A stretch of DNA of 47,157 bases, from contig CANRPP010000009.1 in NCBI GenBank assembly GCA_947632545.1, forward strand, positions 1 through 47,157, read 5' to 3'. The notes below the pieces were generated by a model. The model was given only the letters and a program-made list of their open reading frames with translations. It did no database searches and was not told the origin of the DNA. Positions within the stretch are counted from its first letter, which is position 1; every line of letters begins with the position of its first letter. Both the position numbers and the translations under genes were made by a program. The DNA comes from an uncultured Bacilli bacterium (GTDB lineage Bacteria; Bacillota_I; Bacilli_A; RF39; UBA660). Positions 4,212-24,176 of this stretch are shown here, piece by piece.

Positions 4212-5633
4212 TTATTTTTTCTTTTTATTACCGGTATAATAATATCCTTTATTTAGTAAATTTTTATCATTATATTTACTCCATTTTGTTATACTTGAAC
4301 CATTATTTATTATTTTTCTTGTTCTTTCACTTTTATAGCATACTGTAGCATAAAATTCTTCATTTCTACTAAATGTTATAGTTTCTATTTTTTTATTATA
4401 TATTGGTATAGTTTGTGATTTGTTTTTATTACATATATAACTTGAAACTCTAGTTATAGTTTTTCCATAAGTATATTTATCATATATATATTTTGGTGAT
4501 TTAGTACAGGTATTACCACAATTACTATAGTCTGCATCTACTAAAACATAATGTGTATTATATGTATCAGTAGGTGGAACATCATAACTTGCTCTACCAT
4601 TATAGATCCAGCTACCTACATTTTTTCTTGTATTTTTATTTATATTATTTACTTGTTTATAATCTGTACTACTAGCAAGTTGATATATTATTCCATCTAC
4701 TTTTATATAATTGTAATTTGTGCAGGCACCTGTTGTTATATTAGCATTATTTATAAGTGATGTTTTTTGACTTTTATAAGTATTATATTTATTTAATTTT
4801 TCTTTTCTATCTAATCTTTTTAATTCTTTTAAGCATGTTTTATCATTATTATTACAAGTTATTGCAGAGGTATTACAGTCAACAGTTACCCAATTACTCC
4901 ATAAACTCCAATCTGAAAATACTACATTTGATGTTTTTATATATTCATATATATAATTATCTGTTGTATTTTTTACTTTAATAGTTCCTTTTTGTGTTTT
5001 TGATGTTACTTTAGTTTTTCTTACTTTTTTCTTCTTTGTTGTTGTAGTTTTTTTAATTTTACTAGATTTAATTATTGAATTAGAAAAATTATTTTCTATA
5101 TTACTTTCTTCTATATCAGTAGATTCTTCTTCATTTTTATCTTTTTCATTATCTATAGTTTCTGATTTAATTTCACATAAATAAGTATCCTTGCAATATG
5201 AATTATTATTCAAGTGTGCAGTTATATAATCTTCTTCACCACTACAAAATAAATTTACTTTTAACTGGTATTCCTTATCTTTTTTAGTTAATTTAACATA
5301 CGATTTTTTATTATCACAAAGTTTATTATCTTTATCTTTAATTGGAGTTATTGCTTTAAGTGATATCATTTTTTCTAATGTTAATTTACTACTTTCCCCT
5401 ACTTCATTAGGAATATTATTTTCATTATAATATTTTATAGCGTGTTCTTTCATTTTTTCTAGATTTTCTGAAAATATTTCATCAGTATATCCTTCTGGTT
5501 CAATATTTTGATTTTTTTTAGAAATTGCAGTTACTATACATACTAAAATTGCAACTACTATAATTATTATTATGAATTTTAATAAAAAATTCTTATATGG
5601 AAAATCTTCTCTTTTATAGTCTTCTGTATACAT
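4212..5633 (-). CDS. Membrane-anchored Cys-rich surface protein
   Basis: 473 residues. A short cytoplasmic tail is followed by a transmembrane anchor (about 17-38, FIIIIIVVAILVCIVTAI). A module at about 55-160 (LTLEKMISLKAITPIKD ... SYVKLTKK ... YQLKVNLFCSG) resembles the C-terminal part of Gram-positive pseudopilin-like proteins. A Lys/Thr-rich linker leads to a Cys-rich C-terminal domain. That domain opens with FSDWSLWSNWVTVDC, a W-x-x-W-x-x-W pattern like thrombospondin type 1 repeats, with many paired Cys suggesting disulfides outside the cell. First gene of a two-gene operon with its own promoter; SD AAGGGGG. The exact family is not recognised, so this rests on topology and motifs. Confidence 0.75.
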   Translation of the reverse strand: MYTEDYKREDFPYKNFLLKFIIIIIVVAILVCIVTAISKKNQNIEPEGYTDEIFSENLEKMKEHAIKYYNENNIPNEVGESSKLTLEKMISLKAITPIKDKDNKLCDNKKSYVKLTKKDKEYQLKVNLFCSGEEDYITAHLNNNSYCKDTYLCEIKSETIDNEKDKNEEESTDIEESNIENNFSNSIIKSSKIKKTTTTKKKKVRKTKVTSKTQKGTIKVKNTTDNYIYEYIKTSNVVFSDWSLWSNWVTVDCNTSAITCNNNDKTCLKELKRLDRKEKLNKYNTYKSQKTSLINNANITTGACTNYNYIKVDGIIYQLASSTDYKQVNNINKNTRKNVGSWIYNGRASYDVPPTDTYNTHYVLVDADYSNCGNTCTKSPKYIYDKYTYGKTITRVSSYICNKNKSQTIPIYNKKIETITFSRNEEFYATVCYKSERTRKIINNGSSITKWSKYNDKNLLNKGYYYTGNKKKK

Positions 5634-20965: not shown

Positions 20966-21754
20966 TTATCTATATAATAATAAATATATTTTTGCAAAAA
21001 TACTTTGTAGTAAAGGTACTCTAATTTTAAATTTAGGATTATCCTTTTCTACTTCTTTTACTATTTTATTAGTTAGTTTCTCATAACTCTTTTTTTCTAT
21101 TAATGCAAATAGATTTCTTTGTAATCTATTTATAGAATTTCTATTTTTATAAATTTTTGAATTTTTATTTATAAATATATTTTTATTATCAATCATAATT
21201 TGATTAAAACCTGTGTAATATGCACCTGGTTCTATCAGAGAAATTTTAATATTACTATTTAAATATTTTAATTCTTGTTTTAAAGTAAATACTAACATTG
21301 ATATAGCTGCCTTTGATGATGTATAACATCCTAAATATGGTATTGGTAGCATACTTGCTATTGAAGATGTTACAAATATTTTAGCACGTTTATTTTCTTT
21401 TTTCTTAATATTATAATATTCTTGCAATAATTCAAATGATGAAAATATATTAGTTTCATAATTATCTCTTAACATTTGAATGTCCATTTCTAAAATACTT
21501 CCACCTATACCAATACCTGCATGATTCATTAGTACATCTATTTCTAAATTCTTTATTAATTTTCTATCTTCTTTTTTAGTTATATCCATTTTAAAACATA
21601 ATATATTTAACTTTTCTTCTTCTATCTTTTTCTTTGTAGTTAGTAGTTCTTCTTTAGTGTGAGTTGTAAGATATACAGTATGTTTTCTTTCAGATAATTT
21701 CTTTGCTATATCAAATCCTATATTTGATGCTGCTCCAGTTATTAAAATTCTCAA
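20966..21754 (-). CDS. Short-chain dehydrogenase/reductase
   Basis: 262 residues, classical SDR. The cofactor motif is TGAASNIG near the N-terminus, MNHAGIGIGG replaces the usual NNAG, and the active site has TSSIASMLPIPYLGCYTSSK with catalytic Tyr-x-x-x-Lys. It would oxidise or reduce a carbonyl/alcohol with NAD(P); the substrate is unknown. I prefer a TTG start at 21754 because GGTGAT sits 4 nt before it and the protein then begins directly with the beta strand RILITGA. The longer reading adds nine hydrophobic residues without an SD. Single gene after the surface-protein terminator. Confidence 0.88.
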   Translation of the reverse strand: MRILITGAASNIGFDIAKKLSERKHTVYLTTHTKEELLTTKKKIEEEKLNILCFKMDITKKEDRKLIKNLEIDVLMNHAGIGIGGSILEMDIQMLRDNYETNIFSSFELLQEYYNIKKKENKRAKIFVTSSIASMLPIPYLGCYTSSKAAISMLVFTLKQELKYLNSNIKISLIEPGAYYTGFNQIMIDNKNIFINKNSKIYKNRNSINRLQRNLFALIEKKSYEKLTNKIVKEVEKDNPKFKIRVPLLQSIFAKIYLLLYR

Positions 21755-21781
21755 TATAATCACCAATAATAGTATTCCCAA

Positions 21782-21817
21782 AATAAAAATAAAAAATACT
21801 ATAGTTAAATAGCATTT
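21782..21817 (-). terminator. Terminator of the phase-variable surface-protein gene
   Basis: 9-bp stem AAATGCTAT/ATAGTATTT (one G-U pair), 6-nt loop, then a T-rich tail, beginning at the stop codon. Confidence 0.65.
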
Positions 21818-22746
21818 TATTTATTTATTTCTACTACAGCACGAGCACCATATGCTCTCGACATAGTTTGATTAATAGCCAAACAACCATCATTGCGCAC
21901 AAGCCACGCATCACTATTATTTCCATTAGAAGCCGACATAGTCCAATAACCATAATCACCTGATGTATCGTCATAACTACCGTCATAACTTGTGGATTTA
22001 TATAGGTAGTTATACAACCACTCTGGACAGGAAACATTATTTACTGTACATCCTGTTTTTTTTGCTTCTTGAAATGTTATCATTCTTGCTCTGGCTTTCC
22101 TTTGTGACATAGTATACTTATTATAATTGCAAGTTAAACCGGATATAGAACAACCTGTATATTGATTTTCATATAATATTGTTACACCAGGTTGATATTC
22201 TATTACATTTACATTTGTCCAAGTTTTAGTCGCATCTTCTAATTCCGGTAATATTGTTTCTGGTCCATACCAATTGTCATCTTCTTCTTTATACCATTCT
22301 TTACTTTTTATTATATTTTCTCTTTGTTGCATTGTTATTTTATCCCCATCATCATGTAATACATAAAAATAATGCTCTTCATTCTCTTTTACACGATATT
22401 TTATTATTGTACCTACAGAACAACTATTTGCATTTTTATCTTTATAACATTCTGTTTTTTGACAAGTATTTTCTTCACCATTTATACATTTATTATTTCC
22501 ACTTTCACTATATGTATAAGCAAATACTATGTTCTTATTACTATTGCTGCATAAATTTGCTTTTTCATATAATTCATCTATTGCTCCTTGGATATTATTT
22601 TTACTTCCATGACTTGTTTCAGTATTATATGATACATCACTTCCTGTTAATATATTCTCTGCTCCATATGTTACTGTTGTTGATATTATTATTCCTATTA
22701 CTATACCTACTAATATTTCATAATTTTTCTTTACTATTTTTTTCAT
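21817..22746 (-). CDS. Exported surface protein with variable-type C-terminal domain
   Basis: 309 residues. An N-terminal signal or anchor (about 10-28, EILVGIVIGIIISTTVTYGA) is followed by a segment SHGSKNNIQGAIDELYEKAN, a pattern recurrent in surface and phage proteins of gut Bacillota. A Cys-rich middle with several pairs comes next. The C-terminal domain contains ARMITFQEAKKTGC, PEWLYNYLYKS, YWTMSASNGNNSDAWLV and YGARAVVEINK, resembling lectin-like or DUF1566/DUF6273-type endings. The last 300 nt are visibly richer in G and C than the rest of the gene. Expression appears to depend on a promoter with a G10 spacer tract (22781-22811). SD is GGAG 7 nt before the ATG. Ligand unknown. Confidence 0.8.
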   Translation of the reverse strand: MKKIVKKNYEILVGIVIGIIISTTVTYGAENILTGSDVSYNTETSHGSKNNIQGAIDELYEKANLCSNSNKNIVFAYTYSESGNNKCINGEENTCQKTECYKDKNANSCSVGTIIKYRVKENEEHYFYVLHDDGDKITMQQRENIIKSKEWYKEEDDNWYGPETILPELEDATKTWTNVNVIEYQPGVTILYENQYTGCSISGLTCNYNKYTMSQRKARARMITFQEAKKTGCTVNNVSCPEWLYNYLYKSTSYDGSYDDTSGDYGYWTMSASNGNNSDAWLVRNDGCLAINQTMSRAYGARAVVEINK

Positions 22747-22780
22747 AACTACGCTCCGTATTTTTTTATCTTATAATACA

Positions 22781-22811
22781 ATTCTACCCCCCCCCCAGAG
22801 CGTTTTGTCAA
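22781..22811 (-). promoter_or_regulatory. Promoter with a poly-G spacer, likely phase variable
   Basis: On the minus strand, -35 TTGACA (22806-22811) and -10 TAGAAT (22781-22786) are separated by AAACGCTCT plus ten G (22787-22796), a 19-bp spacer. G8 would give the optimal 17 bp. A second -10-like TATTAT (22773-22778) lies further downstream, but with a 27-bp spacer. Slippage in the tract would change spacing and promoter strength, as known for porA in Neisseria meningitidis. Confidence 0.7.
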
Positions 22812-22833
22812 CTAAAAATTTTTTTCAAAATTT

Positions 22834-22867
22834 TGTAAAAAATAAATACGTTTTTATACGTATTTAT
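22834..22867 (-). terminator. Terminator of the comN-murC operon
   Basis: Stem ATAAATACG/CGTATTTAT with an A-rich loop followed by TTTTTT, just after the murC stop codon. Confidence 0.85.
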
Positions 22868-22871
22868 AAAT

Positions 22872-24176
22872 TTAATTTAATTCTTTTTTTAAATTTTCTA
22901 TTAAATGGGATACTGATGCACAACTCATAAAGCATATTACATCATCTTTATATTCAAGTAATCTTTTCATTTTATCTTCACTAATAATTTCACTATTTTT
23001 AATTTTATCAGTTATCATTTTTGATGAAACACCTGGATAATCTTCTTGTTTTTCACGGTCAGAATCTATTTCAGTTAAAAATGTTTTATCTGCTTTTGAT
23101 AATACTTCTATAAATTCATTAGTAAAATCTTTTGTTCTTGAATAAGTATTTGGTTTAAATACTGCTACTATTTTTTTATCAGGATATTTTTGTTTAGCAG
23201 CTTCTAATGTCGCATTTATTTCAGTTGGATGATGAGCATAATCATCTATTATAATTGTATTGCCTACTTTTTCTTCTGCGAATCTTCTTTTAGCATTATG
23301 AAAGGTTTTTAATAGTTCATTTATTTTCTCTTCTTCAATACCTAAATTTTTACATACAATTATTGAGGCAGTAACATCTAATACCATATGTTTCCCGTAT
23401 AATGGTACAGTAAATGATCCATATTTTTTATCATTCTTATATAAATCAAAATTAGAGCCTGTATTTGTAAGTTTCATATTTTTTATTACGATATCATTAT
23501 TTTCATTAAAACCATAAAAGATAACTTTTTTCTTATAATTAATTTTTCTTATTTCTTCATTATCTCCACATGCTACTACAAACTCTTTTGTTTGATTTGC
23601 AAATTGTTCAAAAGTATTTCTTATATCATCAATTCCACTGTAGCACTCTAAATGTTCTTTTTCAATATTAGTTATAACTGCATATTTAGGATGATATGCT
23701 AAAAAATGTTTGTTAAATTCATCACTTTCTATAACAAAATATTTATTATTTTTATCTACATATCCATCACCTGCACCAATAAAATAATTGCATTTTACTG
23801 TATTTTCTAAAATATGTTTTATAACTGATGATGTAGTTGTTTTACCATGAGTACCAGAAACACCTATTGTATCAAATAAATCTACTATATCTCCTACTAT
23901 TTCATTGTATTTTTTTATAGTTAGTCCTAAATCTTTAACTCTTTTTATTTCTTTATGATCAGGTTTAAATGCCATAGAATGAGTTACAATTACATCCTTA
24001 TCAAGCTTCATGCTACTATCATAATATATAGGTATATTTCTTTTTTCTAAACCTACTTGTGTAAATTTATAATCTTTTTGATCATCATATCCAGATACAT
24101 CATTACCTAAATCACTTAATATTTGTGCCAATGTAGACATACCTGTTCCTTTTATTCCGATACAATAATATTTCAT
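22872..24176 (-). CDS. murC: UDP-N-acetylmuramate--L-alanine ligase
   Basis: 434 residues, full length. It adds L-Ala to UDP-MurNAc with ATP, the first amino acid of the peptidoglycan stem peptide. Visible: N-terminal Rossmann motif GIKGTGMSTLAQIL, ATP-binding loop GVSGTHGKTTTSSV, IESDEFNKHFL, and DDYAHHPTEINATLE near residue 293. The C-terminal Mur ligase domain includes AVFKPNTYSRTKDF. SD AGGAGTGAT. Last gene of the operon, 45 nt after the permease gene. Its presence argues against a wall-less mollicute. Confidence 0.97.
   Translation of the reverse strand: MKYYCIGIKGTGMSTLAQILSDLGNDVSGYDDQKDYKFTQVGLEKRNIPIYYDSSMKLDKDVIVTHSMAFKPDHKEIKRVKDLGLTIKKYNEIVGDIVDLFDTIGVSGTHGKTTTSSVIKHILENTVKCNYFIGAGDGYVDKNNKYFVIESDEFNKHFLAYHPKYAVITNIEKEHLECYSGIDDIRNTFEQFANQTKEFVVACGDNEEIRKINYKKKVIFYGFNENNDIVIKNMKLTNTGSNFDLYKNDKKYGSFTVPLYGKHMVLDVTASIIVCKNLGIEEEKINELLKTFHNAKRRFAEEKVGNTIIIDDYAHHPTEINATLEAAKQKYPDKKIVAVFKPNTYSRTKDFTNEFIEVLSKADKTFLTEIDSDREKQEDYPGVSSKMITDKIKNSEIISEDKMKRLLEYKDDVICFMSCASVSHLIENLKKELN

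Follow-up and report, generated by a model that had tools for sequence, protein, structure and literature searches.

The window, by which we mean the whole stretch of 47,157 nucleotides analysed here, has a G+C content of about 24% and belongs to the AT-rich draft genome (1.045 Mb, 42 contigs) of an uncultured Bacilli bacterium. On its minus strand, read from 22811 to 22781, lies a poly-G promoter (TTGACAAAACGCTCTGGGGGGGGGGTAGAAT). Its -35 hexamer is followed by nine nucleotides (AAACGCTCT), ten G (GGGGGGGGGG) and the -10 hexamer, so that the order is TTGACA-N9-G10-TAGAAT with a spacer of 19 bp, and a further 34 bp separate the -10 hexamer from the gene of a 309-aa protein (Table 1). A first-pass annotation of the same DNA had placed the ten G exactly between TTGACA and TAGAAT in a 19-bp spacer, which is confirmed by the sequence. 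It had also named this the longest G/C homopolymer of the window, and rightly so, as the tract is the sole run of seven or more G or C across the 47 kb. Dinucleotide shuffles of the window gave 0.08 matches on average versus four observed.

Table 1. Features at and around the poly-G promoter, in window coordinates.
Feature	Position	Strand	Basis and remarks
Short-chain dehydrogenase gene	20966..21781	-	35 bp downstream of the surface-protein gene
Gene for 309-aa exported protein (predicted)	21817..22746	-	N-terminal membrane/signal segment, NIQGAIDELYEK linker, predicted C-terminal C-type-lectin-like domain at about residues 97-309
Ribosome-binding site GGAG	22754..22757	-	Sequence; 7 bp 5' of the ATG; conserved in paralogs
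-10 hexamer TAGAAT	22781..22786	-	Sequence; TATATT or TATGAT in some paralogs
G10 homopolymer	22787..22796	-	Sequence; within the 19-bp spacer (22787-22805); 9 or 10 G in paralog promoters with identical flanks
-35 hexamer TTGACA	22806..22811	-	Sequence; same hexamer at other type-1 poly-G promoters of the genome
murC (cell-wall synthesis)	22872..24176	-	Identified by reading the protein, and by synteny; upstream neighbour and flank of the surface-gene cassette

Between the surface-protein gene and the dehydrogenase gene a terminator was looked for and not found. Because of this and of the short distance between the two genes, the dehydrogenase gene is possibly co-transcribed with the surface-protein gene and might be switched together with it. 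In two other genomes (G006 and G007) murC directly adjoins the dehydrogenase gene, with no surface-protein gene between them, while in a third (G005) the site which in the window holds the promoter and the surface-protein gene is taken by another gene. The unit of promoter and gene therefore looks like a cassette, and the murC-dehydrogenase interval (20966-24176 of the window) is, judged by gene order, a variable insertion site.

The exported protein and its predicted fold

The product of the downstream gene had been described at first pass as exported and rich in cysteine, which agrees with the N-terminal membrane or signal segment and with a Cys pattern that is conserved in an alignment with 28 relatives from the source genome and from G007, a genome of the same genus. 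In the same alignment the loop preceding the conserved last C-terminal strand is hypervariable among the paralogs. Searches of Pfam and NCBIfam with the window protein returned no family over the curated cut-off and no credible name. An AlphaFold2 model has pLDDT values above 85 from residue 70 on. Foldseek alone found nothing below 0.001 for this model (E of 0.0025 or higher). With VIA-align the predicted structure matched the IgA peptidase of Thomasclavelia ramosa (9qa6, residues 32-284) at Z 10.8, and the model of residues 97-309 matched the C-terminal domain of Legionella Lcl (8q4e; Z 8.1, rmsd 3.9 over 122 residues) and TvpA of Treponema denticola (2y3c; Z 5.8, rmsd 4.7 over 148 residues). 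Many animal C-type lectins match the model at Z 5-6.

A C-type-lectin fold of the Lcl/TvpA/FGE-like kind is thus predicted for the C-terminal domain, and a role as adhesin is plausible on the basis of the model. The window protein resembles Lcl and TvpA in this predicted fold and has in addition the hypervariable loop before the conserved C-terminal strand. However, there is no significant sequence match between them, and the fold alone does not show function.

Poly-G tracts in the source genome and its relatives

Genome-wide counts were obtained by pattern searches and by reading of individual stretches. The source genome contains 23 tracts of seven or more G, where a first-order model fitted to the window predicts about two; for tracts of nine or more the same model gives about 0.05 per genome. 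All 23 sit 3' of a -35 hexamer and are followed by a -10 hexamer unless a contig end intervenes. Four of them lie at contig ends which cut off the gene, and one of these four also lacks the -10 hexamer for the same reason. With 23 tracts in promoters against about two expected anywhere, chance is untenable.

The 23 promoters fall into two main types and one single case. Type-1 promoters have the form TTGACA-AAACGCTCT (or close variants)-G9/10-TAGAAT/TATATT, and the products of their genes begin with MKKIVKKNY..IGIVIGIIISTT..GAENILTGSDVSYN..NIQGAIDELYEK and then diverge. Twelve genes encode this N-terminus: nine have a poly-G promoter, which means every close paralog with an intact upstream region (9/9), the upstream regions of two more are truncated at contig ends, and a divergent copy (45% identity), located directly behind another gene, is without it. 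Type-2 promoters read TTGAC(T/C)(C/T)-G8..11-TAGTTATNGTATAAT. Their products have a signal peptide and mostly end in NPNTSDINLYLLLSLIAVSGCGIAYTVKRRFN, which is similar to a sorting signal. This C-terminus occurs in ten genes, eight of them with a poly-G promoter (8/8 of the close ones), one cut and one divergent and without it. The single case precedes the gene for a protein of 324 aa, which has a signal-like N-terminus and, at its other end, a membrane segment. Seven sortases are encoded in the genome, two of them close to type-2 gene clusters on contig 10, in keeping with anchoring at the surface. Signal and membrane segments, sorting-like C-termini and the sortases all point, at the level of sequence, to a surface location.

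The gene for another exported protein (MNSKNNKGIKIVGGSLLTLAIVALL...) on contig 34 has the promoter TTGACA-AAACGCTGGGGGTGGGG-TACAAT, in which the tract is broken by a T and the spacer measures exactly 17 bp. The related gene in G001, a congeneric Bacilli genome from rabbit gut, has TTGACA-AAACGCTC-G9-T-TAGAAT with 18 bp. We read the interrupted tract, a single example, as one in which slippage would have stopped at optimal spacing, as expected of a promoter fixed ON.

Mismatch-repair loss as a source of tract instability was ruled out, as MutS1 is encoded in the source genome and MutS in 369 of 386 genomes of the family. Slippage would therefore not be helped by such a loss, and no mutator background is shown.

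The family was searched with the pattern TTGACN-N{0,12}-G8-N{0,10}-TANAAT, with the reversed pattern as a control for chance. Matches were obtained in 94 of 386 genomes and 55 of 150 genera, and the reversed pattern matched once in all of them. At the level of the class, 44 of 394 genomes have matches, among them members of several other families (notably family f21), the reversed control giving zero. Further poly-G tracts between -35 and -10, for which the first-pass annotation had proposed a search, thus occur both at all 23 sites of the source genome and in these 94 family members. Some genomes are very rich in pattern matches, for example G421 (62), G087 (42) and G078 (37). G007 has 79 tracts of eight or more G, and counts in relatives go up to about 60-80 per genome, with about 80 in a genome of 1.3 Mb. 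The stretches of G007 that were read contain tandem arrays of dozens of lectin-like genes of about 1.05 kb. These genes are homologues of the window gene, and every one of them has a hypervariable C-terminal loop and a promoter of its own that is nearly identical to the others (TTGCAA-N10-G9-TATAAT).

Not every tract in the relatives is part of a spacer, because G9 tracts are also present in coding or 5' leader regions. Two genomes of the same genus have them, in G004 apparently inside a reading frame and in G003 beside a ribosome-binding site. These tracts would act on translation, so that translational phase variation is possible there. Nor are poly-G promoters limited to surface-protein genes, since by sequence reading one precedes an ABC-transporter ATPase-like gene in G005 and another a glycosyltransferase-like gene in G034.

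Two observations concern DNA of other origin. The viral contig IMGVR_UViG_2149837006_000031 has TTGACA-N10-G11-TATAAT (5051-5083) before the gene of a 284-aa membrane protein, located between terminase and portal in what is, by reading of the proteins, a tailed-phage region; this is a phage cargo gene with a possible poly-G switch. On WQWV01000036.1 (5547-7970), from a metagenome-assembled genome labelled Alphaproteobacteria, three sites resemble the poly-G promoters and share their design, one pair being divergent and placed back to back; this is an apparent convergent use outside the Bacilli.

Tract length, spacer geometry and alternative explanations

Tract lengths and spacers were analysed in 171 promoters from 50 genomes, among the matches listed. 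Tracts have 8-16 G, and spacers have 15-24 bp with a mode of 18-19 and one outlier of 10. The lengths compared stem either from paralogous loci of a single genome or from different species, rather than from individual cells of the same strain. Variable tract length had been named in the first-pass annotation as a sign of switching, and it is found among these paralogous loci: the number of G differs in 18 of 22 sets of same-genome promoters whose flanks are identical (among the matches listed). Examples are 11/12/13 in G018, 13/16/16 and 11/12 in G220, 11/12 in G303, 10/11 in G198 and 9/10 in the source genome. Two assembled versions of one locus, which would represent a direct length polymorphism, were not present in the source genome, where the upstream flanks are distinct. 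A search of viral contigs with the exact promoter words returned no variants of the same species, and a scan of GTDB contigs gave matches in other species only.

The position of the tract inside the spacer is free, and its flanks vary from genus to genus. Across 84 different combinations of flanks, the distance from the -35 hexamer to the tract and that from the tract to the -10 hexamer are strongly anticorrelated (rho -0.87), and the remainder of the spacer outside the G run is held at about 8.5 bp (SD 1.45 versus 4.69 when permuted, p=1e-5). As the tract position varies by genus while the total spacer stays close to that of a functional promoter, it is suggested that a slippery element has been placed there convergently. 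In promoters without a G run from the same DNA, the distance between TTGACA and TATAAT peaks at 17 bp, which is the value of 7 of the 15 strict matches (11 have 16-18 bp), an optimum which the poly-G spacers with their 15-24 bp straddle.

One may ask whether these promoters are static. A fixed spacer of 18-20 bp could need an activator, like the 19-bp spacers of MerR-type promoters, and the G run would then be a binding or DNA-shape element. To this would fit the spacer mode of 18-19 bp among the matches listed as well as the near-uniform tracts in two genomes: 26 of 27 sampled promoters of G007 have exactly nine G, and all seven copies with identical flanks in G042 have eight. This uniformity means either that the tract is stabler than assumed or that the assemblies report the majority length. 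However, copies with identical flanks vary in length, spacers extend over the range given above, and neither the place of the tract nor the flanking sequence is maintained between genera, so that we consider a static promoter improbable.

Alternatively, the G run could serve mainly recombination, as homology or as a G-rich hotspot for the shuffling or gene conversion of paralogs, with effects on the promoter being secondary. Promoter and the first ~230 bp downstream are indeed 80-96% identical among many paralogs with different C-termini, and the tandem arrays of G007 point in the same direction. Yet the downstream homology extends far beyond the tract, the upstream flanks are mostly unrelated, and a recombination site would need neither a position between -35 and -10 nor a constant spacer remainder; this explanation appears very improbable to us. 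That the tracts are artefacts of assembly or sequencing, such as the poly-G of two-colour chemistry, or products of chance, can practically be dismissed. Several of them are near contig ends, but others lie inside contigs with intact genes on either side, the identical precise context recurs across genera in many separate draft genomes, which refutes an artefact, and hardly any tract of nine or more G is expected per genome.

A putative phase-variation system of the cell surface

Anatomy, recurrence, length differences and spacing constraint together form the expected signature of slipped-strand phase variation in a promoter spacer. Very probably, therefore, the G tract is a contingency element, a random on/off dial for the cell coat, because all 23 long tracts of the source genome are in promoter spacers and because copies that match in all else have unequal numbers of G, both here and in dozens of related genera. 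DNA polymerase would slip on the G run and add or remove one or more G. Each gain or loss would shift the distance between -35 and -10 around an optimum near 17 bp, and the spacing would determine how well RNA polymerase recognises the promoter, if it does so at all. At ten G the window promoter, with its 19 bp, is probably weak or off, and would become more active once one or two G are lost. The same cassette, consisting of the promoter and a conserved N-terminus followed by a variable C-terminal domain, would drive about 20 surface-protein genes in the source genome, and a population would thus hold many random combinations of surface proteins.

The proposal of the first-pass annotation, that the tract is a phase-variation switch in a promoter spacer, is thereby supported by recurrence and length variation and greatly extended. 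The switching itself, meaning that a given locus changes its tract length within a strain and that transcription responds, we infer, since the lengths compared belong to paralogous loci or to different species and not to cells of one strain. The benefit would presumably consist in evading phages or host antibodies, or in changed attachment.

Promoter-slippage switching is known mostly from few genes in pathogens. In tp0126 of Treponema pallidum a poly-G tract lies between -35 and -10, and transcription is best at 17 nt (PMC7864442). This gene shares with the window promoter the poly-G in the spacer and the surface-protein product; however, few genes per genome are concerned and the product is a spirochaete outer-membrane protein, whereas here about 20 genes of one genome encode surface proteins of the Gram-positive type. 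The homopolymers between -10 and -35 of porA, fetA and opc in Neisseria meningitidis are thought to alter sigma-factor binding (PMC2791445). They are likewise located in the promoter spacer but belong to single genes, in contrast to the repeated promoter cassette found here, and lineage and proteins are unrelated. The vlp genes of Mycoplasma hyorhinis form a switching multigene family of surface proteins with a homopolymer in every promoter region (PMC10502178). They resemble the families of the source genome in their multigene arrangement and in the promoter homopolymer of most or all paralogs, although there the tract is poly-A, the products are lipoproteins and the host is wall-less, while here we find poly-G, sortase-type or membrane-anchored proteins and murC.

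In the open-access literature no report on phase variation in this lineage was found, subscription journals being outside the scope. On balance we favour the broader view that a major regime of phase variation has gone unrecognised in genome-reduced, uncultured Bacilli of at least 55 genera. It would act through poly-G in the promoter spacers of large, partly tandem families of surface proteins, with tract numbers up to that reported above for a 1.3-Mb genome, so that every cell would display its own chance assortment of lectin-like and sortase-type proteins; a switch of this sort would also be present on a cargo gene of at least one phage. Promoter slippage looks like a main control of the coat in this uncultured lineage of small genomes, where it would cover tens of genes in about 1 Mb, a scale that is rarely seen. 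If this is true, every host would hold these bacteria as a mosaic of surface states, with consequences for phage resistance and for antibody coating.
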